Shown here: piece after piece, positions 7,719-63,400 of the stretch | Position numbering within the stretch: position 1 is the stretch's first letter | Layout of the letters: each line of letters starts with the position of its first letter | From: Verpa conica | Taxonomy: Eukaryota; Ascomycota; Pezizomycetes; Pezizales; Morchellaceae | Direction of reading: 5' to 3' | DNA length: 64,000 nucleotides | Assembly: GCA_033030425.1 (NCBI GenBank) | Contig: JAUFSD010000024.1 | Coordinates: 62,001 to 126,000 of the forward strand | Notes under the pieces: generated by a model | Told to the model about the DNA's origin: nothing | The model's input: only the letters and a program-made list of their open reading frames with translations | Databases searched by the model: none | Position numbers and translations under genes: made by a program

Positions 7719-7727
7719 CTTCCCCTC
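7719..7727 (-). promoter_or_regulatory. Polypurine tract of the copia element
   Basis: On the element strand GAGGGGAAG directly abuts the 3' LTR, the position where plus-strand DNA synthesis is primed. It overlaps the polyprotein stop codon (7726-7728) by two bases. Confidence 0.8.
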
Positions 7728-10700
7728 ATTTGTTACCTCGTATTGAGATGGCATGTTGAAGGTGTGCTGGTTTTGGTAGACCTTTTGTGAGAATGTCGGC
7801 TATATTGTCAGAGGTGGAAACATATTCTAGAGAGAATATTCCTGATTCGTACCATTCGCGGGTAGAGTGGTATTGAATATCGATATGTTTGGATCTATCA
7901 TGGATTCGTGGATTTCGAACCAGCTCAATGGAGCCAGTGTTGTCAGCGTGTATTGTATAGTTGTAAGGTTGACCAAGTTCTGTTAGGCCGGATTTTAACC
8001 ATACAAGTTGCTTCGCGGTTAGGTTTAGGGCCATGTATTCCGCTTCGGTGGTTGACGTAGCAACTGCTCTTTGTTTGCGACTTCTCCAACTAATAGTTGA
8101 CTTTCCAAGTTGAAAGACGTATCCAGAAAAGGATTTTCGATCAGAGATGTTGGAACCGAATGAGCTATCTGAGAACCCATGTAACGTGTTGTCAGAGTGT
8201 TTGGAGTAGAACAGTGTCCAATCTTTAGTGCCTTTGAGATATCTGAGAACTCGTTTGGCAGCAATTAAATGTTCTGCCGTAGGACAGGAAGAAAACTGGG
8301 AGAGAAAAGTGACTGTATGAGAGATATCGGGTCTGGTGCCGATGCTGGCATACATAAGGGATCCGATTATGGATTGATAGAGTTTTTGATTATCTATCAT
8401 GGACTCTGTTGTTCCTGTTGTGAGTAGAGTGTTGGGTTCAAGTGGCGTGCCAACTGGTCTAGATTCATGCATTTGGAACTTTTCAAGGAGTTTTTGTATG
8501 TATCCCTTTTGAGAAAGGTGTATGCCATCAGAGGTGCAGTCAATTTCTAATCCCAGGATGTATTTGGATTCCCCAAGGTCTGTGCATTCGAAATCTGTCA
8601 TGAGAGACTGTTTGATGCTTTGACGATAATTGTTACTGGGTCCAAATATCATAATGTCGTCGACGTAGACGGCTAAATAGATGTGTTCTGTGGAATTAAT
8701 GAACACACATGGATCGAAGTAGGATGCTTTGAATCCTTTCAGTTTGAGGGAGTCGACCAGGCAGGCGTACCATTCTCGAGGAGACTGTTTCAATCCGTAG
8801 ATGCATTTGCGAAGTTTACACACTTTGTTGTCTTGTTTGTATCCTTCTGGAAGTTCAAGATAAATTTCTTCCTTGAGGACACCGTGGAGAAAGGCAGTTT
8901 TGACGTCTAACTGAATAGGAATCCAGTTGTTGTGGGCAGCAAGAGCTAGTAGGAGTCGTAGAGAGTCATAACGGGCAACTGGTGAGAAGGTTTCATCGAA
9001 ATCGAGACCTGGTATTTGTGAATAACCTTTGGCGACATATCTGGCCTTGTATCGTTCAATGGTTCCATCTCGGTTGTATTTTGTTTTGTATACCCATCTT
9101 CCTTTCACGACTTCTCGATTTTGAGGTCGTTCTACTATATCCCATGTGTTGTTTTTAATGAGTGCGTCGTATTCTTCCTTCATTGCTTTATTCCAAAGTT
9201 CCGTGTCTTCCCCTGAAGTGGCTTGTCGAAAAGTGACTGGATCGGTGCTGATGTAGGCATAGTGAACTGGGATGTCAGTTGCAGTGTTTGCTCGGGCTTG
9301 ACGAAGTTGTCTCCTAAGATCATTCCTTTGTGTTCTATGTTCTTTTAAGGAATCGTCTTTTAGGCGTTGGTGATCTCGAGGGTCTTCGTTTTGTTCGATA
9401 ACTAGGAGGTCATCTTTCAGATCTCTGTCTAGTTTCTCAATTTTGGCTTGTATTCTGCGTATTTCTGTGTCCCTTTGTTCCTGTTCGATTTGAGTTGTTT
9501 TTTCGACTGGTTTCTTTTCTCTTGTTGACCGTCTGGGTGTTTGGAATGGGGGAGGAATTGGTATAAATGTTTCCTTTTTTGTTGGAGATAGTGGAAAGTC
9601 TCCTGGTGTGTGTGTTTCTGGTTCTTCATCAGAGTCTGATAGCGGAAGTATAAATTCTTTTTCTTCCCCTTCATCTTCTAAGGGAACTGCTTCTTTTCCT
9701 TTTGAAGATGACTCTGGTACTGACGCTTCGAGTTTTGGAGTTTCTATAGGAGGGTAGGAGACATCAATCGATACTTCCCCTGAAGCTGGAGGGGGGAACG
9801 TGATATCTCTAGTGACTACCACCTTGTGTTGAGATGGTATCCAAACTCGGTATTGTGTGTCGCTGTCTGTGTATCCAACAAATTTTCCTTCGACTGCTCT
9901 TGGTTCTAATTTGCTTCCGGCTGGCCTGGCTTCCTTGTGAATATGGATGTAGCATTTCTGACCGAAAGGGTGAGCATGTTTGATTGTTGGTTTCTTTCCA
10001 TGGAGTGCTTCGTATGGGGTTTTATCCTTTAGAGCACTGTGTAGGAGTCTATTTTTGAGATAGACAGCAGTTGAGTACGCTTCTTGCCATAGGATTCTGG
10101 GATGGTCCATTATCATGCATCGAACCATTGTGGTTACCGTCCTGTTGAATCTTTCGGCTACCCCATTTGATTCATGGGAGTATGGTGGCGTTGTCTCTTG
10201 AGTAATGCCCTCTTTTCCGAAGAAGGTCTTGGTATTTTTGTTGACATACTCGCCTCCTCCATCAGCTCTGAACCTTTTTATTGTGGTGTTATGCTGATTT
10301 TTGACTTTGTTGGTGAAGTGTTCGATGGCTTTACACGCATCGTCTTTATTCTTTAGGAAATAAATCCAAGAATAGCGAGTGTAGTCGTCTATGAAAGACA
10401 TATAGTACTGGCATTTGTCCTGAGACATTACTCTTTGTTTACCAGAGAGATCTGAATGGACTAGTTCGAAGGGTTGTGTGGCTCGAGTACTTATTGTCTT
10501 TGGGACCAAATGAGTGCTTTTTGAAAGGGCGCATGGTCCGCAGTGGAAGTTACTTGGTTTCTTTGGGAGATTGGTACGGTCGGCATATAGGCTATGAAGA
10601 CTAGACGGATGTCCGAGTGCTTCATGCCATTCAGAGTAAGAGGAGAGACGTGCTACATTTTCAACTATTTGTACATTCCAGTGCCCGTTTACCAATTTTC

Positions 10701-11967
10701 CCCAGAGTAATTCCTTTTTACCCTTTTTAACAATTTTACTTCCTCCTCCTGCATCGACTCTGCACCCCTTTTTGTCAAGAACGGTCTCGGAGATGAGACC
10801 AACTGGTCCGAACGTGGGGACGAGGAGTACATCAGTGAGAACGACTGAAGATCTTCCTCCGTCAGGGAGCCAACACTCGATGAGGATATCTCCAATTCCT
10901 GGAGCTCGGTGAGCGGTCCCATCAGCTGTTCTAACGATTCCGTCGTAAGGTCGAACCGTGGTGAAGAGTTCTTTATAGGGAGAGATGTGAGCAGTTGCGC
11001 CAGAGTCGAATATCCAAGATGAGGAGGGCGAGGAATTGTGGCGTACCATTAGGACGGTTGCCGAATTATGTGTGCTAGTGGAGGCGTTATCCTCCTTTCC
11101 TTTTCCTTTTCCTCCTTTCTTTCTCCATTCCTTTTCCTTTTTGAGCCTTCTGCAGTCATCGTGGGTGTGATTTGTAAATTTCTTTCCTGTTTTTGCCAGA
11201 CAGTAGGTACAATGTTTCTTTGTGCTATGACTGGTGTTGAAGACGGTATTTTCGGAGCTGCCGGTTTTATTGGCGGATAGATCGGTGAGTCTATTGTAGA
11301 CGTCTTCGTAGGAAAGGTTCTCCTTGGTTTGGAGATTGTCGATGATGTTTTCCATTGAGGTGGCAGTGTTTAAGGAAACAAGCAGCAGGGCTGCTTTGGC
11401 TCGGTTGGAGTTTGCGACGGAGTGGAAGTCCTTGGATAGTCCTTCTTTTGTTGTGTCCTGGCATCGTTGCTGAAACCTATTCCATTGATTTTGGAAGGTG
11501 GTTAGGTGGTCTGCAAGGGAGGTATTGTCCTGATAACGTAGGTTCAGGAGTGTTGTGAGAATGTTGATCGTAGTTGCTGGAGTTTCCCTATCGAAAAGGT
11601 CTTTAAGGGCTTTCCAGGCACCGTGTGCGCTACCGGCGGCAACGACTGTGGTTTGTAGTTCTTCTGATACACCGTTGAGTAAAAGTGCGAGAGCTCGCTT
11701 AGAGACGGTTTTCCATTTCTGGTGTTCTTCGGAGGATTTGTCGGTTGGTTCTTTATACTCGCCACTCACATTTTCCCACCATTCAACTGAATCAAAAGTA
11801 ATCTTCCAGGCTCCTGCCCAGGTCTGATAGTTTGACTGTCCAGTAAGAACGGGAAGTCTATCTGTCTTGACCATGAGATTTCCCATAGGATTTGGGATGG
11901 CAGTGCTCGTAGGTTGGACTACGGTTTCATCACCGGACTTGCTTGTAGAAGCTGCTCCTGAAGACAT
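7726..11967 (-). CDS. Copia Gag-Pol polyprotein, 1413 aa
   Basis: One frame encodes all functions for retrotransposition in cytoplasmic particles. Gag occupies roughly residues 30-250. A zinc-knuckle-like motif (CTYC ... HTHDDC) lies at about 253-272, the aspartic protease triad DSG at 321-323, and integrase with HSDLSG and DDYTRY motifs follows from about 500. Reverse transcriptase has FDETFSPVAR and the YVDD box near 1101-1104. RNase H lies at the C-terminus, with the TEAEY motif. Length and order fit Ty1/copia elements. No frameshift separates gag and pol, so Gag must be made in excess in another way. The start at 11967 is 80 bases inside the 5' LTR. All key residues are present and there is no internal stop. 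Confidence 0.95.
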   Translation of the reverse strand: MSSGAASTSKSGDETVVQPTSTAIPNPMGNLMVKTDRLPVLTGQSNYQTWAGAWKITFDSVEWWENVSGEYKEPTDKSSEEHQKWKTVSKRALALLLNGVSEELQTTVVAAGSAHGAWKALKDLFDRETPATTINILTTLLNLRYQDNTSLADHLTTFQNQWNRFQQRCQDTTKEGLSKDFHSVANSNRAKAALLLVSLNTATSMENIIDNLQTKENLSYEDVYNRLTDLSANKTGSSENTVFNTSHSTKKHCTYCLAKTGKKFTNHTHDDCRRLKKEKEWRKKGGKGKGKEDNASTSTHNSATVLMVRHNSSPSSSWIFDSGATAHISPYKELFTTVRPYDGIVRTADGTAHRAPGIGDILIECWLPDGGRSSVVLTDVLLVPTFGPVGLISETVLDKKGCRVDAGGGSKIVKKGKKELLWGKLVNGHWNVQIVENVARLSSYSEWHEALGHPSSLHSLYADRTNLPKKPSNFHCGPCALSKSTHLVPKTISTRATQPFELVHSDLSGKQRVMSQDKCQYYMSFIDDYTRYSWIYFLKNKDDACKAIEHFTNKVKNQHNTTIKRFRADGGGEYVNKNTKTFFGKEGITQETTPPYSHESNGVAERFNRTVTTMVRCMIMDHPRILWQEAYSTAVYLKNRLLHSALKDKTPYEALHGKKPTIKHAHPFGQKCYIHIHKEARPAGSKLEPRAVEGKFVGYTDSDTQYRVWIPSQHKVVVTRDITFPPPASGEVSIDVSYPPIETPKLEASVPESSSKGKEAVPLEDEGEEKEFILPLSDSDEEPETHTPGDFPLSPTKKETFIPIPPPFQTPRRSTREKKPVEKTTQIEQEQRDTEIRRIQAKIEKLDRDLKDDLLVIEQNEDPRDHQRLKDDSLKEHRTQRNDLRRQLRQARANTATDIPVHYAYISTDPVTFRQATSGEDTELWNKAMKEEYDALIKNNTWDIVERPQNREVVKGRWVYKTKYNRDGTIERYKARYVAKGYSQIPGLDFDETFSPVARYDSLRLLLALAAHNNWIPIQLDVKTAFLHGVLKEEIYLELPEGYKQDNKVCKLRKCIYGLKQSPREWYACLVDSLKLKGFKASYFDPCVFINSTEHIYLAVYVDDIMIFGPSNNYRQSIKQSLMTDFECTDLGESKYILGLEIDCTSDGIHLSQKGYIQKLLEKFQMHESRPVGTPLEPNTLLTTGTTESMIDNQKLYQSIIGSLMYASIGTRPDISHTVTFLSQFSSCPTAEHLIAAKRVLRYLKGTKDWTLFYSKHSDNTLHGFSDSSFGSNISDRKSFSGYVFQLGKSTISWRSRKQRAVATSTTEAEYMALNLTAKQLVWLKSGLTELGQPYNYTIHADNTGSIELVRNPRIHDRSKHIDIQYHSTREWYESGIFSLEYVSTSDNIADILTKGLPKPAHLQHAISIRGNK

Positions 11968-46961: not shown

Positions 46962-49326
46962 TCATAGGCGCTTTGCCTTTTTAGTCTTCACTACTGCCAC
47001 TCCCCTCGGGACCTTGATGGAGTTCCTATTAAATATTTTTCTTGGCAGACTCCCCTGGTTTTTTGGTACAGGTCTCTTTATCACTTCCTTTGCGTTGAGA
47101 ATTTGTTCGAATCCGAAATCACCGAGGAGGAACTCCAACGCCATCCCAAGATCTCGGGCATGGAAAATCTTACACCTTCTCATAGTCAGCACCCCCTATA
47201 TAGTATGATTTCTAGCGTAAGTACTCACCCCTTCGTTAACGACTTACCAACCCACCTATCTAGCTCAAATATAATCCCGATCTTTGATAGGAAAACTGTT
47301 CTCATCTCTCTTAGTAGCTTTTCACGGCTGAAACCTTCGGAGCGATTCCAACGAAGCCCTAGTTCTAGATAAGCGCTAAAAATATATCTATAATTCAACT
47401 TCCCCTCTAGAGTCCTCCTAGCCTCATCACTCTGATGATTCTCAACATAACCTTCCCTAGCCTTTTCTAAGAACAATTTTTCCTTGTTCTTTTCCGCTCC
47501 CTTCCCTTTATTCAAGGCACCAATGGCTGCATGAATATTGGGAAATATTCTTAGCAGCTCCTTGAAAAGGTTTTCAACCTCCTGTTCAAATCCTATCAGC
47601 GCTTGCTTCTTTGCCCACTCAGCCTCCCCATTTTTCAAAGCGCTGAAAGATATCAGTATATCACGACATCGCTTCGAACTCCTCTCAAGAAGACCATTCT
47701 TAATTAGCCGCTCTAAAGAATCAGTGCTATGTTCAAAAACAAAGATATCAATTTGCCCATCAACAGTAGATGGCCCACATCCATTCTTAACTGTCTCTAG
47801 CGGTTCCTTCTTGTGCTTCTCTGGAAATATTCTCTTGACTGTACTATAAAGATCAACCGACGGGCTTATCTGGAGTTCACCAAGTCGATTGGCACAGTAG
47901 AGCTGATCAAGACGCATCTTTGCCTTTACAAATGATGGTCCTGACCAATAGGCTGGATCAGCTACCTTTCTCTGATCTATTGCTAGTCAGCAGAATCTCC
48001 TTATCCAGATCAAAACCGCCAAACAACAAACCTTTACGATTATCCAACAGTCCCCCTGTCAGGAAGAGGTCCCAGAAGCTTAGTATATTCCTCTTTTCAC
48101 GGAAGTCGTAGGTTTCCAAAGGAATGCAACCCCGGATATCATTTAGTAACCGCGATACAAGCGCACCGCCTGAATCTTGGTCTGAGTCCTGGTCTGAGTC
48201 CTGGTCCGAATCCGAATCATCATTCAAAAGAATTGAAAGACATAGATCACGCCATATCCAGACCAGGATACCGTATGGCTGATAACCGGCAACATTCTTC
48301 CATTCCTTGATTACTTTGTTTTTCCTAGTTCTTAATTGGACGGATACGCCGTATTTCATATCCTCTAAATCGTAACTAATTTCATGTTAGGGTAGGGTCA
48401 ATTAAACAAGGCTTTGAGTACGAACTTATCCCCTAAACGATCAAGTTTATTTATTGTATCCGCAGCGTACATGAGGCAGTTATGTGCATCTTCGGGGCTA
48501 CCTGAATCTTCAATGCCTAAGGAAACTAGATGAATACTAGGGATCCAATCGAGAAGTACTCTAATTACGCGAATCTTAATGTTGTTCTGACAGGAGCATT
48601 TTTATAAGCAAAACTTCTTTAGAAAGACGTTAATATCATAGATATTACCTGGGACTTTTTGAAAGACAGTTCATTTTTCGAGTTCATCTCTTGGGGTTTC
48701 GCTTTCCTAAGCCCCTTCATAAGGCTCCCCACTGCTTTTCTGGTAACATTGAGGTTAAATTCATACTCTAGCTCTCCATCTTCATGTTGTATACCCGAAG
48801 ACTGTGGGGCGACCCATTCTGGGGTCGGTTGTTGTCTCGACCCTAGACCATGGTTTGTCATACTGATATTCCCGGACTCAGGAACCACCTCTGTTGAGTC
48901 ATCAATAGCAGCCAAATCATCGACTTGTGAATTATCGAGCCAGCTCTGAAAAGCCATTGGAGTTACCGTAAGCTGGGGATTGATGGAAGTCCATTGGTCA
49001 GAGGGCTGCTGCTGGAGCTGTTCGTTGTTTTCTGTAGCGACAACATCGGTTTCGCTGAAGGGAACAGGGGCACGGAGGACCCTAACCTTACGATGTGTGA
49101 ACATTCTGGACTGATGATCTTGATAACCAGGGTAATGTGGGGGTGGGTAAGTTTGTCGTTGTTCGTAGGCAGTTGGCGAGTGACGGGTGATGATTTCGAG
49201 TGTGACATCAAACCCTAGCCCGTCTGACGTTGCTGCCGACTCGCTTAACACTGCCGTGGCTTGGCATCTACAGCCTGATTGGGGCTCTACAGCAGCCCCA
49301 CTAACCTGAGAGAACCATGCCTTCAA
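46962..49326 (-). CDS. Multi-exon gene of unknown function
   Basis: Several coding blocks on this strand follow one another with splice-like borders. They are 49326-48649; 48586 to about 48400; about 48375-47960 (from YDLEDMKYGVSVQL, with a DSDQDSDQDSD repeat); 47917 or slightly above to about 47240; and a last block ending KTKKAKRL at 46962. The first intron, 48587-48648 (GTAATA...TGTCAG), is in phase. The others I could not fix with certainty. The N-terminal 230 residues are Q- and P-rich and look disordered. The 47.2-47.9 kb block is rich in charged helices. I recognise no domain. The right intergenic border (49327) and convergence with the UNC93-like gene on the left suggest one transcription unit, but two genes are possible. 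Confidence 0.5.
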
Positions 49327-50195
49327 GCCTCATGTCTTGGAATCATGTTAAATTGACTGTGTTTTGGTGCTGCATATGCACGGCTACCAGTAGACTTTCT
49401 CAAGCACTTAGAGGTCCAATATCCACCCCTCTTCAATTCTCTAATGTCTAACGAGCCTGATTAGCACAGAGCATACATATGACTCAGGTTGTGTGGTCGG
49501 AATAATGATGACCCTCCACTAAGTCTTGGCTCAGGGCTGAACCAGTCTGCTGGGTTAGATAGAACCTCAACTCCTCGCGATCAGCACCTTTCTCTTGTCC
49601 TCTTACAATCGGTAGCTCGATTCTATGAGGTCAATTGCACATCGCGGGGTCTAGCGGCTGCCTCAATGACTCCTCCTCCATCGGCAATTAGCTATTGCTC
49701 TAGAGGATCCGTGCACGCGGGGAAGGACAATATGTACCTACACGACTCCACCCAAGGTGATTGGGGTACGGTAGGGCTGAGATATGCATTGGCTCGAGTC
49801 CTCATTGGCCGCCTGAATAGATCCTTGTGAGCTTTAACAGATCCTTTCCGTTCGTGGGTCTGATATCATAGATATGTAATAGGACGGCATGTTGGGCTGA
49901 CTTTGTTTTTTGTGATACGAAAACATCTCAAGCTTAGATCGACTACTGAAAGATTCAATTTAAGTTGTGTCATAGAGATAGTCATTGATTCGTGTTGATC
50001 TACAGCTCTCGATGCTGAGGCCGGTTTACCCGTTCAATACCCCCGAGACTCTTATTTAAACGGCTTCTCCCAGCTTCAGGCAATCTCATCAATCTCTCAT
50101 AGAGAACCATCAGTAGTTGTAGAGCCTCTGCTACTCTACCTCAATATTCTACATACTAAATCTATAACCTCTCCGCTTCTTTCGAGTCAGCCATC
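49327..50195. other. Divergent promoter region
   Basis: The region lies between a leftward and a rightward gene. No coding sequence is supported. The last 100 bases before the rvt start are pyrimidine-rich, as in many fungal promoters and leaders. Confidence 0.4.
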
Positions 50196-52871
50196 ATGTC
50201 GTCATTCTCTCAAACCCTCAACTCCATCACCACTACCAAACTCCAAGTGCTCTCCAAGCAGCACAAGGAATTTAGTTCCCACAAGGAAAAGACTTTATCC
50301 TCAGTCAACGCTTCAGAAAACCCACGGGAGAGAGTTCAAGCACTCCTCGATGGCATCAAATCCTGGCGTAGCACCGACACAACCTCTACAGAATCTTCCT
50401 CCTCCGAAACCTCTCATTCAGCCTATGTTGACAACGTCGAGAGATTCATGTTACAAGCCAAGTGCGACCCTAGCATTGGTAAAACCAATCTGGGTGAGTG
50501 GGAATACAAGCTCACTCAGAAGCTTGAGACCGAAAAAGTCAAGTTCGAATACGCAGAGCTATTTGGGAGGCTATTGACCGAGTGGATTGCTAGCTCTGCT
50601 ACCCCCGTAGAGAAGGCCACAGAAAAAAACTCGTCCGAGGAGACTTTTGAGAAGGTCGGAAGGAAAGAGATGCATGAGCAACGCTCTATCTTCGAGTCCC
50701 ACGTTTTCACAGAAAAGGAAACCGACCCAGCTGCCATTCTAGCATACCTTGACGAACTCTTTTTATCTTCTAAAGAGGGTAAGGCCGAGCTCAAGAAGAT
50801 TCGCCAAATGACACGAAGGTTCAGCAAAACGCTCCTCACCAAAACAAAATTCACCGTTGATGACCTTAAATTAACAATTACCTCCCTGCTGGCGGCTGAT
50901 CTTTTATCAAACGAGAAGCGGAACACCCTCAAAGAATTCACCCAGAACAAGACAGTACTCACCGAAGTGGCTGATGTCCTCAATATGCACCTTTCCGCGT
51001 TATCATCGTGGTCCTGGACTAATGATGAAATCGATGCCATCCCCGTCGAGATGCGGAGGCAATTGAACGGCAAATACCGTATTTTTATGGACGAGGAGAT
51101 CCTACAGGCCATTTTCTTACACTATATTGGTATCAAGTGGGCCGTTGAGTTCAAGAAAACCTTCAAGTTTGTCTTTGCATCTAGCGCCTGGAAGCAGCCT
51201 ACGAAGCCACTTTCGAAAGATGAAAACGAGAGACGTGAATATTTCCTGCATGAAAAGCCAAGTGTTATGAATCAATGTCAGCTTGATAGTCCCAGGACAA
51301 TTGATGAAACAAGGCAGTCGAAGCAGAGAAATTTGTTTTTCATGAACCAGCTTCCGGACAGTCTTCAGAAAGCCAAGGCATCTTACGACGACGACAACGA
51401 CGACGACGATGGTGACTCACAGAGCGACAAGGCTCAGATGTCGGCAGTAGAAATTAAGCAATCTCTGCTGCATATCGTGACAACTGAATGTCTCCTCAAC
51501 ACCACATTACACGATAAGTTCACCGTTGTCCGTTCCGACTTTTCATGGTTCGGCCCAAGCTTGTCTCACACTTCCATGATGACCGTCCTCCGCTTTTTTG
51601 GAGTTTCCGAGATTTGGCTCACCTTCTTCCAAAAATTCCTGTCGGCACCCCTTAGGTTCGTCGTTGACGGGCCCGAGGCTCCAATTCAGACACGGAAGTG
51701 TGGGGTTCCCATGTCTCACAGCCTGAGTGACCTCTTTAGTGAGGTACTGCTGTTCTGTATGGACTATGCAGTAAATCAGCGCGCAGATGGCCTCTTTCTC
51801 TATCGTATACACGATGACTTCTGGTTCTGGAACAGCGATCCTACTGTATGTGTGAAGGCTTGGAAAGAGATGAGTACCTTCGCTCAACTTGTCGGCCTAG
51901 AGTTCAACTACGAGAAAACGGGCTCCGTATCTGTCGGACAACCACTACACCCGGATCTCCCTGAAGGATCTATTAAGTGGGGATTTCTGAAGTTTGAGGA
52001 GTCTGGGCAGTTTGTGATAGACCAATCCCAGGTTGACGTCCACATCGCTGAACTCAAGCTTCAACTTGCTGCGTGCCCCTCCGTTTTCGCTTGGGTACAG
52101 GCATATAACAGATATGTGTCATCCTTCTTCGTCAACAACTTCGGTTCGCCACCTGCGCAATGTTTCGGCCAGAGACATGTCGACATGGTCATCAACACTC
52201 TACAGCGAATTCAGCTGGAGCTCTTCCCAAAGCACCAAGGCTCGGTGACTGAATACCTAGCTGAAGTGATCCAAGAGCGTTTCGATGTCCGTGATATCCC
52301 GACTGGCTGGTTCTACTGGCCGGTCTCCATTGGGGGGTTGGAGGTTAAAAATCCATTCATAACCCAGTACGCAATTCGCGATAGCATTTGCGTTGATCCT
52401 TTGCAAGTGATACGGGAGAGGATTGAGTCCGATCACCGAGAATACGATTCTTTGCAGGAGAGCTGGGATAACGGTACTACTAAAAAGCCTTACACCCAAA
52501 ACAAAAAGCTACAGGAAGAACCCTTCCCCTCCTTTGAGGAGTATGTGCTACATCGCGAGCGACGCCTTATTTCGTGGAAGAATACCTATGATGAAATGTT
52601 GCTGGGACCATATGACTGCGAGATTCCACTGGCGGCGGAACTTGCAGCTAAGTTGAACGAGCTGTCGTTTGAGGTGGCAAATCTGACTGGGACTGGAGGA
52701 ATTTCGCGGGGTGGGTGGGAATCGATGAATGTATACTGGAAGTGGATTGTTGCGTGCTTTGGTGAAGGGATGATCAAGAAGTGGGGTGGGTTAGAGGTTG
52801 TGAGACCTGGGATCCTCCCAGTTGGGATGGTAGATGCGTGGAAGAGTAGGAGGCTGAGGTGGGAGCAGTAG
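50196..52871 (+). CDS. rvt: rvt-type cellular reverse transcriptase, 891 aa
   Basis: An intronless frame encodes a protein matching the rvt group, single-copy RT genes known in fungi, other eukaryotes and some bacteria, which are not part of mobile elements. The N-terminal ~250 residues are charged, helical and probably coiled-coil. The RT core follows, with an acidic insertion (DDDNDDDDGDSQSD, ~400-415) between early motifs, as rvt proteins have an extra loop there. Motif A is SDFSWFGPSL (Asp448), then CGVPMSHSLSDLF, and motif C is IHDDFWFW (Asp540, Asp541). All three catalytic aspartates are kept. A long C-terminal domain of about 300 residues is family-specific. There are no integrase, endonuclease, gag or flanking repeats. 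Known rvt proteins polymerise nucleotides in vitro; their cell role is unknown. The start Met at 50196 is the first of the frame. Confidence 0.85.
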   Translation: MSSFSQTLNSITTTKLQVLSKQHKEFSSHKEKTLSSVNASENPRERVQALLDGIKSWRSTDTTSTESSSSETSHSAYVDNVERFMLQAKCDPSIGKTNLGEWEYKLTQKLETEKVKFEYAELFGRLLTEWIASSATPVEKATEKNSSEETFEKVGRKEMHEQRSIFESHVFTEKETDPAAILAYLDELFLSSKEGKAELKKIRQMTRRFSKTLLTKTKFTVDDLKLTITSLLAADLLSNEKRNTLKEFTQNKTVLTEVADVLNMHLSALSSWSWTNDEIDAIPVEMRRQLNGKYRIFMDEEILQAIFLHYIGIKWAVEFKKTFKFVFASSAWKQPTKPLSKDENERREYFLHEKPSVMNQCQLDSPRTIDETRQSKQRNLFFMNQLPDSLQKAKASYDDDNDDDDGDSQSDKAQMSAVEIKQSLLHIVTTECLLNTTLHDKFTVVRSDFSWFGPSLSHTSMMTVLRFFGVSEIWLTFFQKFLSAPLRFVVDGPEAPIQTRKCGVPMSHSLSDLFSEVLLFCMDYAVNQRADGLFLYRIHDDFWFWNSDPTVCVKAWKEMSTFAQLVGLEFNYEKTGSVSVGQPLHPDLPEGSIKWGFLKFEESGQFVIDQSQVDVHIAELKLQLAACPSVFAWVQAYNRYVSSFFVNNFGSPPAQCFGQRHVDMVINTLQRIQLELFPKHQGSVTEYLAEVIQERFDVRDIPTGWFYWPVSIGGLEVKNPFITQYAIRDSICVDPLQVIRERIESDHREYDSLQESWDNGTTKKPYTQNKKLQEEPFPSFEEYVLHRERRLISWKNTYDEMLLGPYDCEIPLAAELAAKLNELSFEVANLTGTGGISRGGWESMNVYWKWIVACFGEGMIKKWGGLEVVRPGILPVGMVDAWKSRRLRWEQ

Positions 52872-53036
52872 ATGACAAGTGAGGGGGAATGTATATAGGT
52901 CATGGTGTTGTGTATTAGGAGAATTCATGTTTATATCAGAGGAATGACTTTCTGTTTACGCTCAACTATCTACAAGCGAAGGCTATGCCCCCAAGCCGTT
53001 ATAATACAAGCGATATATGATACATCCCCCACCCAT

Positions 53037-54248
53037 CTAATACCTCCTACCCTTCCGTGAATGGCCCTCAAAACTCTCCAGAGCACGATCTTCCATATCT
53101 CCAAACCAGAGAATGTAGTCAGCAATCTCAGTACTCTTCTTCATCCTGGCCATGTCAAGGGCGGTGAAGCCACTGGCATAATCCTCACACTCGAGCGAAG
53201 CCCCCTCCTCTATCAAAACCTTTGCTATCCCATTGTGCCCACCCAACACCGCCAGATGTAGTGCCGTATGCCCATCACAATCCTGCCTATCTATATCAAT
53301 CCCATTATCTAGTAGCTGTCTAATAACACCCTTAAGCCCACACTCTGCCGCAATATGCAACGCCGTAGAACCCTCCCACCTGAACCCATCATCTGCAAAC
53401 TTTAATAACACCATCATGAGCGGCGAATCATCATCAGCATCTAGCACCAACCCAAGCGGCGTATTTCCATTATTATCCTCGATCGAAACCGACCGACCAG
53501 CCCCATTCTTGAGCAGCAACTTGACCAACGGTACATCATTCTCCGCAGTCGCAAGATGTAGCGGAGTACACCCCTCCTCATCCTGACAATTAACATCAAC
53601 CCCCGCTTCGAGTAGTAGCGTTATAGCCGGTGTATTACTCTCATTTATTGCGTTGCAGAGCGGCGTTGACCCGTATGAGTCTCTAGCCCCGATATCTGCC
53701 CCATTGTCTATAAACAACCTGATGATATTCTCACTACCGAACCGGACCGCCCAATGGAACGCCGAATCAACATAATCCATTTCCTCATTGTTATCATAAT
53801 CACACGCCCCCATCTCCAACAACTGGCCCACGACGGCCTCCTGGTGTCTGCGTATCGCCCAAAAAAGCGAGGTTCCAGTGAATCGCTCCGAAGGTACTCT
53901 TGTGTCTTCAGTCACGGTGATGCGGGCTCCGCGGGACATTATGTCGGCGATTGTCTTGTCGGTGCATTTGTTGGGGCTTTCGTGGATCATGGTGTCGTAC
54001 CCCATCACGTCGATTCCTGAGGCGTTCTCGAGGATTAGTCGCACGAGTGGTTCGTTCCCGATTGCGGCGCTCCAGTGCAGAGCGACGACGCCATACTCGA
54101 TCTTGTGGACGGCAAGGTGGTGTAGTAGCGGGATGAATACGTGCGCGAGGCGGCGGTTGGTTTGGCAGAGTGCGCTGAGGTCGGTGGGGTCATCGAGGTG
54201 GGATTGAATGAGGAGGAGAAGCTCGTTTGGTAGGTGGAGGAGGCTCAT
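53037..54248 (-). CDS. F-box and ankyrin-repeat protein, 403 aa
   Basis: A single exon. The N-terminus is an F-box-like segment (LHLPNELLLLIQSHLDDPTDLSALCQ), which in the family recruits Skp1 of SCF ubiquitin ligases. From about residue 55 to 395 at least nine ankyrin repeats follow, with clear cores such as GYSTPLHLA-type words (CTPLHLATAENDVPLVKLLL, TALHIAAECGLKGVIRQLLD, TALHLAVLGGHNGIAKVLI). The C-terminus is basic (SRKGRRY). Such F-box/ankyrin proteins are multi-copy in many ascomycetes and are thought to be substrate receptors, with the ankyrin part binding the target. It is unrelated in sequence detail to the ankyrin-CorA gene. No intron or break is seen. Confidence 0.85.
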   Translation of the reverse strand: MSLLHLPNELLLLIQSHLDDPTDLSALCQTNRRLAHVFIPLLHHLAVHKIEYGVVALHWSAAIGNEPLVRLILENASGIDVMGYDTMIHESPNKCTDKTIADIMSRGARITVTEDTRVPSERFTGTSLFWAIRRHQEAVVGQLLEMGACDYDNNEEMDYVDSAFHWAVRFGSENIIRLFIDNGADIGARDSYGSTPLCNAINESNTPAITLLLEAGVDVNCQDEEGCTPLHLATAENDVPLVKLLLKNGAGRSVSIEDNNGNTPLGLVLDADDDSPLMMVLLKFADDGFRWEGSTALHIAAECGLKGVIRQLLDNGIDIDRQDCDGHTALHLAVLGGHNGIAKVLIEEGASLECEDYASGFTALDMARMKKSTEIADYILWFGDMEDRALESFEGHSRKGRRY

Positions 54249-54520
54249 CTTTGAAATGTTGGTAAAAGTGGGATAGAGGGGTGTATGGAAGGTTTCACTA
54301 TTGATGTATATAATGTGTTGGATGCCTGAACTGGGGTAGTTACTAGATCCGGTAGCCGCTTTTGTGCTTGGTCACAGAGGTAATAATTGATTTTAATTAA
54401 ATCTCGGTTGTTTTTAAGATTTGTGCAGTAATAATGGCTTGATTAGGTGAACCCGTACTGTAAGAGTATGACAGATAACTAATCACTGCTGTAACACAGG
54501 TAGTTTAGTCAATAGCCCTA

Positions 54521-60452: not shown

Positions 60453-63400
60453 CTACAATCCCCAATCAAATCCAAAATCTGGCGCAAAGAATAGATTCCT
60501 CCTCTTCCATTCCTTTTCTCCTTCCACTTGCTCTGGTTCCTCCGCCTCATCAATGATACCTTCCTCCCCACCCGCAACACCAGGAACACTCGCTGCCAGC
60601 GCATCACCTCTTTTGCAGAACTCTTCCAAGAACCCACTCGCCCTGACTTTCTCCTCTCCATTCGCTAATAGATGTTCCACCCTAAAACTCGCCTTCCTTC
60701 CCGCCACCCACTCCCCAACCCGTCCCTCCCGAAGCTCCTTCACTAGCTTTGGGATCTCTTTGTCAGGGTCTACATTCTCCGCTGGACTCTTCCATTGATT
60801 TGCTGTCCTCGGTGCTGTCCCCAGGGCTTCCTCGGCGTTCCGGACAACTTTAGAGATGGTTCTGATATTCGGCGTCGCGACCTCACGGAAGAACTCATAC
60901 TTCGGATTATCGCGCAAATCAAATACCGTTTTTGTCTGCCGTAGGAGTTGCTTCATTGCAAAATCAGCTTCCTGGTACTCACCTGATACTTTTGCGGCAG
61001 CCGGATGAGATGAAAGAACTGGATATGCTGCACCAGCAGGTTTGGGAATTATCATGGATCCGAGGATGGCTTTCCGAAGCTCGGGGGACCATTCATTCGT
61101 TAGCCCTGACACGAGGTCTAGCAGTTCCCTGGCCATCCTCTGGGATCTTGGAGAGGTAAGGGATTGGAAGGCTGTTGCGAGCCAGGTTAGGATATGGAGG
61201 AGGTTGTCTATTGATGATGAGGCGATGCATTCCAGCAGCGAGAAGTAGACAATTGAATGTTGCATTAAAAGCATGTGATTCTCAAAAACCTCATCCCTGT
61301 TTGATGCGTCGGTAATTGATTGGTACGCTTTGACGGTCTCAGGGTCGAGATATGTATCGTAGACTTTCGTGATGATATCAAGAACTTCCTGTTTAGTCTT
61401 TGGACCTGATTCGCGGATTTTCGTCACCGTAAGGATAGAGTCGATCAAGTGCGACTCGAGGGAGTGGAGCAGAAGGCCTTCCGCATATTGGCCCGTTACC
61501 GAGAACCCAAAAATGAGGAATTTACGATTCATGATCTGCATATGATGGCAGAGACTAGTGAGATCTTTGTCATTCGGCTTCCCGTAGTGCTGCTTCAACA
61601 ACTCGAGAAGGAAAGATTGTCGGATATCAAATAGCTGTAGCACAGGGTGTATATTATGCAAGACAGAGTCTGCAGGTGCCGAATTACGTGCAGATTTCAG
61701 CCCTTGAATTGTTTCAAGATTGCCTGCCCAGATCCAGAGACGATCGCCGGGATCAGGGCCTTTCAGGTGTTTCGTCTCGAAGCCCAAGTATTCCGTAACG
61801 AGCTCCAAAACAGACATTTGTTCTTCAGGCTTTTTAGGATTGACACGCTTCATACTCGGCATTGGGAATAGATCTTCCTCTGATACCTGCGTTGACCCAT
61901 TCTTCACTTCAGTCTCGGAACCGTTCTGGGCCGTCTGAACTGCTTCTGCTGCCGAGACATTACCGGAAGTAGCCGTTGGGCCTGTAGTAACTATCTCGCA
62001 TACTTCATCCTCTGCTATAATCTCCTCAACCTTTGGCCACATCCGTTTCATTGCCCGCCATACACTGCGTCTTGCTTGGTTTTTCCAAAACGCCTTCCCG
62101 TCCTCATCAGCAAGTAAAAATCTCGTCCCATCATCTGCACCCCCACCCGCAGGGCCAGAAGCCCCCGGATTAGCACTCCCAGGCCATGTTGGTCCTGAAG
62201 TTACGCTTGGTGTTGGGGGTGCATAGTAGAAATCACCGTTGGGGGCTGGAGTAGGCGCATCATAACCGGGAGTTGTACTATATGCAGAGTTTGAGAATTG
62301 ATACCCGTAGAAGGCTGCCACACCAGAACTAGGACCCGCGCCGTTACTACTGAATGGGCCGGCAGAGGGCGGGTCTTTGGCAGCAGGTGCAGGTGTGAGG
62401 GCCACAGGGAAAAACTTCTCACGACGGAATGAGGACGAGGTTTTTATCATTCCCTTAGTCAAGACTGGGGTTGAAGCGGGGAGCCTGATAATAAATGGAA
62501 TAGTAGCACATGGCGCAAAGTTGTCAGCCCGGAGATGATCTTTCGGTGAAGGATGGTAGGTGGCCTGCGATATTACAAAGGCTCTTTTTCCATGCAGAGG
62601 ATCTGGGTTCGCCGCCTCCGGGACAGTGGCTTCCGCTGAGGGAAGTGATTTTCGTTTTGCAGATCTGGAATTGACTCTGGGGGCGCCAGGGCCACGGACC
62701 TGGAGGTCAGATCCACCGAGTTCTGCACGTAATTTCTTTTTTGTGTCGTCACCGATAACCCGCAATACTAATCGTTAATCGTTAGCCCAACGTCCACCCC
62801 TAACCCTCACTAAGAACGAATTGAAGCACAAACCGTTATCGCCAATGACTTTCCCTTCGCTACCCACTCCCAATGTACGTAGAGAGTTCAATGGCCCTTT
62901 CCGAACCCCTTGAGCATACAAATAGAGTCCCAACCACTTCTGGAACTTATTCCTGACCTGAGAACTCGCCAGTAGCAAAAGCATTATCGTGACAGTCAAA
63001 GGCGGGTTCGCAGACGACGTACCCACGGCCCCAGGCCCAGGATCCACTTTCCTCCGCTTCGGCGCTGGCTGCTGCGGCTGCTCATCGTTCTGTGCCGAGG
63101 CAGCAGATTGTGCAGCTTTCGCCTCGACTCGTTCGCGATCGGATGAAGACAGGGTCTCTAGGAGGCGCCATAGCAGTGGGGCTTTCCGCTCGCATTGCCG
63201 TTGTACCTTGACAAGGTCGAAGTTCTCGAGACCTTCCTTGAGAATCTCACCAGTCGTTCGTCCGCGGGATTCGGTAGAGTTGGCGCGCACATCGACGTTG
63301 ATCTATATAGACAACAGCTTTCTCAGAAAAAATAAATAATAATTCGAGTAGGTAGGTAGGCAGTAGAAAGATACGCGCGCACATATTTTTCTTCTTTTTC

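Follow-up and report, generated by a model that had tools for sequence, protein, structure and literature searches.

Evidence that Verpa conica keeps a complete rvt-type reverse transcriptase as a host gene, with a divergent second copy and relatives in mosses

A complete rvt gene and its relatives

A stretch of 64,000 nucleotides from the ascomycete Verpa conica (positions 62001-126000 of contig JAUFSD010000024.1; C24:62001-126000 among the 25 contigs of the 45.8-Mb genome, hereafter the window) holds on its forward strand, at 50196-52871, a gene for a reverse transcriptase (RT) of 891 amino acids (aa). Our analysis supports that this is a true and complete member of the rvt class, kept as a host gene. 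The best explanation of its function, which we hold to be fairly probable, is that of a stress-induced, template-independent and possibly tyrosine-primed nucleotide polymerase. The open reading frame (ORF) begins with ATG, has no internal stop and forms a single exon, and the longest antisense ORF overlapping it reaches 198 aa.

When about 5.8 billion proteins were searched, 7996 candidates were scored and 313 homologues emerged at E <= 0.001, and the best 120 of these 313, which were listed, are the relatives spoken of below. Alignment A2 comprises the query and 107 of them (108 rows), 13 having been left out before counting as partial, fused or overlong (P0008, P0039, P0048, P0093, P0101, P0102, P0103, P0109, P0113, P0115, P0116, P0118 and P0119). 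The relatives are mostly of 850-980 aa and align across 99-100% of the query, and since the termini of the Verpa protein match theirs, the gene is complete. The closest of them are full-length and of like kind, and all with a species name are fungal save three from mosses. The top named matches are from pezizomycetes (Maublancomyces gigas, 65% identity; Morchella sextelata, 53%; Tuber magnatum, 52%; Ascobolus immersus, 43%), followed at about 40% by Eurotiales, other Ascomycota and Basidiomycota, with one protein from Aspergillus parasiticus annotated as RTlike1. By its sequences, this set fits the published class rvt (PMC5718144, PMC3520738, PMC10680173, PMC3610870; these and the other papers are cited from excerpts of their text). 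Likened by description, the RVT of Neurospora crassa and fungal rvt proteins have in common with ours the catalytic motifs, an insertion between motifs 2 and 3, and the status of a host gene.

The first-pass annotation, made from the letters alone, had described an intronless 891-aa RT frame with intact catalytic residues, a motif A reading SDFSWFG, a motif C reading IHDDFWFW and an acidic insertion loop. All of this is borne out: D448, D540 and D541 are present, the two motifs lie at residues 447-453 and 538-545, and residues 397-416 are net acidic in 105/108 aligned sequences.

That annotation had also taken the gene for a cellular RT retained by the fungus, a view upheld by a tree of RT cores, by the number of loci and by the full-length fungal relatives. 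In the tree (24 chosen rows), which it had suggested as a check, 17/17 rvt rows grouped apart from seven rows of the same genome (three of long interspersed nuclear elements (LINE), three of long terminal repeat (LTR) elements and one of TERT, with labels that we assigned by look), on a branch of length 3.36 whose support of 80/88 is moderate and comes with long-branch warnings. Near-identical copies with flanking duplications, which it had named as evidence to the contrary, were not seen: the host genome holds two rvt loci, 59-61% alike. Around the gene there is no flanking duplication, neither the longest direct repeat in 49000-54400 (18 nt, 83% identity) nor the longest pair of inverted repeats (25 nt, 72% identity, arms 598 nt apart) being so placed. 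At E <= 10, Pfam found RVT_1 alone in the protein, and no endonuclease, integrase, RNase H or gag domain; the RVT_1 score lies under the cut-off (20.4 against 29.6 bits, E 4.4e-4), which marks a divergent RT. Among the other rvt proteins given to Pfam, P0041 scored 33.7 bits for RVT_1, above the cut-off, and no match was seen in P0015, a moss protein.

Catalytic site, predicted fold and proposed function

The two aspartates of motif C, D540 and D541, are found in 108/108 sequences, and D448 of motif A is Asp in 105/108 and Glu in three (P0097, P0114 and P0120), a small group that also has a longer insertion loop. Two other positions have changed from the usual RT pattern. Five residues past D448, at the place of the sugar gate, G453 is Gly in 106/108 sequences; in a gapless alignment of motif A, the corresponding residues of the host TERT and the three host LINE frames are Phe, Phe, Phe and Tyr, and the three LTR rows were not used because they are misaligned at this motif. 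The Gln of PQG is replaced in 107/108 sequences, mostly by Met or Ile (100/108), and kept in one. In telomerase the gate Tyr excludes ribonucleotides, and its change to Ala in Tribolium TERT raised kpol for rGTP 1,490-fold (PMC7274783); since the rvt gate is Gly, a loss of sugar discrimination would be expected. Judged from its sequence, the protein is thus a putative host-owned polymerase with an RT hand that has lost two contacts usual in templated RTs. The glycine gate and the missing Gln fit the reported non-templated, terminal-transferase activity, a fit that is a test of neither.

The AlphaFold model (predicted local distance difference test, pLDDT, 90) contains the RT hand and the family insertion between motifs 2 and 3, where the rvt literature names a large insertion loop, 2a (PMC5718144). 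With motif 2 placed by our own reading, the insertion has a median length of 133 aa across the 108 rows (range 124-199). It includes the acidic stretch YDDDNDDDDGD, which starts at residue 397. Tyr397 is present in 104/108 sequences within this otherwise variable, disordered loop, and is a possible candidate for a modification or priming site. Folded alone, the C-terminal 192 residues reached a pLDDT of 38.9. The nearest structures in a fold search, which hardly probed residues 1-146, were R2 and LINE-1. The rvt protein differs from R2 and LINE-1 ORF2p in having only 10-14% identity to them and no endonuclease domain that could be found, and its core groups apart from the LINE rows of the host genome. 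In a viral structure library, the matches listed were RTs and RNA polymerases of low TM-score, bar a few with odd names. A crude periodicity check of the N-terminal helices for a coiled coil was weak and uninformative; we presume that an N-terminal coiled coil and the formation of multimers are traits of the family. The founding rvt paper, by Gladyshev and Arkhipova in 2011, is said to describe multimers and a preference for nucleoside triphosphates (NTPs) in the Neurospora RVT.

We propose that the protein would add nucleotides, ribonucleotides probably among them, with no need for a template, and that growth would start perhaps on one of its own tyrosines, with Tyr847 as the first candidate. 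Cells would produce the protein when amino-acid supply or translation is under stress, and either the polymer or the act of making it would help them through. Terminal transferase activity and induction have been reported for rvt (PMC3520738), as have non-templated polymerisation and a relief of stress that requires the catalytic residues (PMC10680173), and precedents for priming by protein exist in DRT9 and DRT10 (PMC12483538, PMC12632851).

Several points weigh against this proposal. The Glu in place of D448 means that even motif A can vary. A study of the RVT of the bacterium Herpetosiphon reportedly found the use of deoxynucleoside triphosphates (dNTPs), an N-terminal coiled coil and priming dependent on C-terminal tyrosines; given such a dNTP preference, the glycine gate may not decide the sugar, or may differ there. 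The upstream sequences are weak evidence for stress control. TGACTCA, which we take to be a CPC1/GCN4-type site, also lies about 247 bases upstream of the second copy, and the TATA-like sequence recurs 91 bases before the ATG of that copy; a TGASTCA turns up in 8.8% of 800-bp pieces chosen at random, and when about 2000 pairs of 200-bp pieces were drawn at random from the window, 69 had a 10-mer in common. Because these chance levels are sizeable, we treat both sequences as a lead for stress control. An RNA template or a partner non-coding RNA (ncRNA), as in DRT9 and TERT, is compatible with the Rfam result, in which no family reached the gathering score in the window and from which an undescribed RNA would escape.

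This last point belongs to the strongest rival, an RNA-templated RT with its own ncRNA that makes a defined repeat or homopolymer DNA, like telomerase or DRT9, which makes poly-dA. We consider it unlikely, since the published rvt activity is non-templated (PMC10680173), the PQG Gln and the bulky gate are lost, and the window has no RNA family by Rfam. DRT9, which uses an ncRNA template (PMC12483538), also differs in having 499 aa (PDB 9ioa, 9nlv, 9vma and 9vku) against 891 here, with sequence likeness confined to about 86 residues. A structural, non-catalytic relative of RTs, comparable with Prp8, is quite improbable, and an RT without catalysis was rejected on the conserved aspartates of motifs A and C; the catalytic residues are also reported to be necessary for stress relief (PMC10680173). 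Still more improbable is a retroelement or its recent remnant, for which the fold nearest R2 and LINE-1 and the 150 RVT_1 matches listed in the genome search would speak, and which we rejected as an origin of the gene because the Pfam result, the two divergent loci with unshared neighbours, the lack of flanking duplications and the full length retained across fungi contradict it. The features of the gene and its upstream region are collected in Table 1.

Table 1. Features of the rvt gene and its upstream region, in window coordinates
Feature	Position	Strand	Remarks
TGACTCA	49480..49486	+	716 bases upstream of rvt; weak
TATA-like CTTATTTAAA	50051..50060	+	145 bases before the rvt ATG
N-terminal helical domain	50196..51035	+	residues 1-280; long helices 3-39, 96-135, 146-170; AlphaFold model
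Fingers hairpin, motif 2 region	51039..51095	+	residues 282-300; motif name by our own reading
Insertion between motif 2 and motif A/3	51090..51518	+	residues 299-441, 143 aa
Disordered acidic loop	51384..51431	+	conserved Tyr397; pLDDT <50 at 399-410
Motif A	51522..51563	+	catalytic D448; D+5 is G453, no bulky sugar gate
Motif B	51693..51731	+	RKCGVPMSHSLSD; PMS in place of PQG
Motif C	51801..51833	+	catalytic D540 and D541, 108/108
Thumb and C-terminal helical region	52023..52868	+	residues 610-891; model and fold search
Tyr640	52113..52115	+	invariant, 108/108
C-terminal Tyr847	52734..52736	+	invariant, 108/108; candidate priming residue, putative role

The second copy, the neighbourhood and the moss relatives

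The second rvt locus, at C14:21199-24006, encodes 935 aa in a single long open frame and retains the aspartates of motifs A and C. It is identical to the window protein at 529/871 aligned residues (61%); codon positions 1-3 of the two copies differ by 0.29, 0.22 and 0.59, with 0.30 nonsynonymous substitutions per site (dN) and saturated synonymous ones (dS). Near its C-terminus, ahead of the invariant Tyr region, the paralogue carries an RGG-rich insert. Its nearest relatives, P0023 and P0027 (100/100 in the tree of 38 rows), have RG-rich inserts too, and comparable inserts sit at the identical place in two Ascobolus proteins, P0036 and P0096; these four are the only ones of the 108 rows with at least three RG there, the paralogue being additional. 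Comparison of the neighbours of the two loci returned the gene itself and two short matches (17 and 37 residues), and no shared neighbouring gene. The paralogue lies about 21 kb from its contig end, and the first 300 bases of that contig lack a run of telomere repeats.

In the published account rvt is described as single-copy (PMC10680173), whereas the host genome has two divergent copies, one with the RGG-rich insert. This is no bar to membership of the class, as the sequence of the second locus makes it an rvt too, and the moss Ceratodon likewise has two sequences.

The window gene stands between a 235-aa frame without a Pfam match, upstream, and a gene for an F-box and ankyrin protein, downstream, in agreement with the first-pass annotation, which had placed it between an orphan gene and an F-box/ankyrin gene. 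Two further statements of that annotation held in part. The gene has no introns, as claimed, but this does not set it apart, since the second rvt copy and two ankyrin ORFs of the window (401 and 403 aa) likewise consist of one long open frame each. Transposon features are lacking on its flanks (49000-54400), but not in the window, where a copia-type retrotransposon at 7726-11967 on the reverse strand, about 38 kb from rvt, has an uninterrupted 1413-aa frame with gag, integrase and RVT_2. This element is distant from the rvt gene and has another kind of RT. A 770-aa frame with DUF6589, presumably a family from fungal mobile elements, lies at 60453-62765 on the reverse strand, and no tRNA was found in the window. 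For a 390-aa piece of an RNA polymerase subunit, presumably RPB2, the named match with the greatest identity was from Tuber melanosporum (76%), and a partial sequence from Ascosphaera atra (69%) had a slightly better score.

The moss proteins are the nearest named relatives outside fungi, at 61-63% identity to the window protein over 99-100% of its length. Two are from Ceratodon purpureus, where they come from two assemblies, carry the locus tags 1G and 9G and lie on contigs 29.0 and 16.8 Mb long, and one is from Physcomitrium patens; among the 120 relatives listed, no named one came from outside fungi and mosses. We built trees of 109 rows and of 38, 27 and 24 chosen rows. The mosses and five other sequences form one clade (100/99), and the window protein is the sister of the moss clade, with 94/97 (38 rows), 94/91 (27 rows) and 98 by the Shimodaira-Hasegawa-like approximate likelihood-ratio test (SH-aLRT; 109 rows). 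Rooted on other Ascomycota, the mosses fall in a clade with Tuber, Morchella and Maublancomyces sequences (99/98, 38 rows), within which they stand apart from Tuber (99/94 with 38 rows, 81/86 with 27 rows). In approximately unbiased (AU) tests on 27 rows, trees that unite the pezizomycete rows without the mosses were not rejected (p 0.207, 0.125 and 0.089), and the moss branch is thus compatible with a place either within or beside the pezizomycetes.

On these trees the mosses appear to carry an rvt of pezizomycete type, the same kind of protein in a plant, and probably acquired from such a fungus. Fungus-to-moss transfer is the simplest reading; its direction is drawn from the wide presence of rvt in fungi against just two moss genera among the named plants of the 120 listed. 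Horizontal transfer of rvt in general has already been published (PMC10680173), and our literature searches found no published account of the moss case.

A possible bacterial counterpart, and what the gene may mean

Excerpts of PMC5718144 present rvt as the sole RT group found in bacteria as well as in eukaryotes. The best PADLOC match of the window protein is RT_UG37 (PDLC03776; 271 bits, E 3.7e-81, residues 10-727 of 891, leaving the last 164 residues uncovered), followed at a distance by RT_UG4 (28 bits); PADLOC lists RT_UG37 with the defence RTs and describes it as DRT. It was the top match in 15/15 rvt proteins scanned, out of 122 rvt sequences, with 214-271 bits, and was absent from the matches listed for the seven host control frames, LINE, LTR and TERT (for TERT, the best 25 of 31). 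Run over the whole host genome, the profile found exactly the two rvt loci, with 284.5 and 265.1 bits. It also matched 3/14 control prokaryote genomes at E <= 0.001, so that low scores mean little.

Scans of bacterial and archaeal genomes and of viral contigs found no rvt relative, and a plasmid search with P0001 found none. Plasmid searches with P0041 and P0071 gave short, weak matches that covered no more than 24% of the query, most of those listed being annotated as group II intron RTs, and a phage search gave two matches of 14% coverage (E 0.05 and 0.1). Because bacterial relatives were not found, there is no bacterial rvt with which to root the tree. UG37 may be the bacterial side of rvt, as the profile match suggests. 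No paper on a UG37 RT was found by title in the literature search, and UG37 is absent from PMC12632851.

It is tempting to speculate that eukaryotic rvt and the UG37 group of bacteria belong to a single family spanning both domains, whose polymerases need no template, prime on tyrosine and have lost the sugar gate. In response to stress or as an immune reaction, they would consequently make RNA or mixed polymers linked to protein. In some fungi rvt would have split into two paralogues, of which one has an RGG tail that binds RNA, and these fungi would have handed rvt on to mosses, which kept it. As a whole, we regard this picture as a long shot.

What is new here is modest: an added member of the class, a genome that holds two copies, one of them the RGG paralogue, the grouping of the mosses, and a testable account at the level of residues. 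G453 may explain the use of ribonucleotides and Tyr847 may prime synthesis, and both ideas are open to sharp, cheap tests. The pair of paralogues in one genome, one of them RGG-rich, and the Physcomitrium copies are two further routes to the study of rvt.
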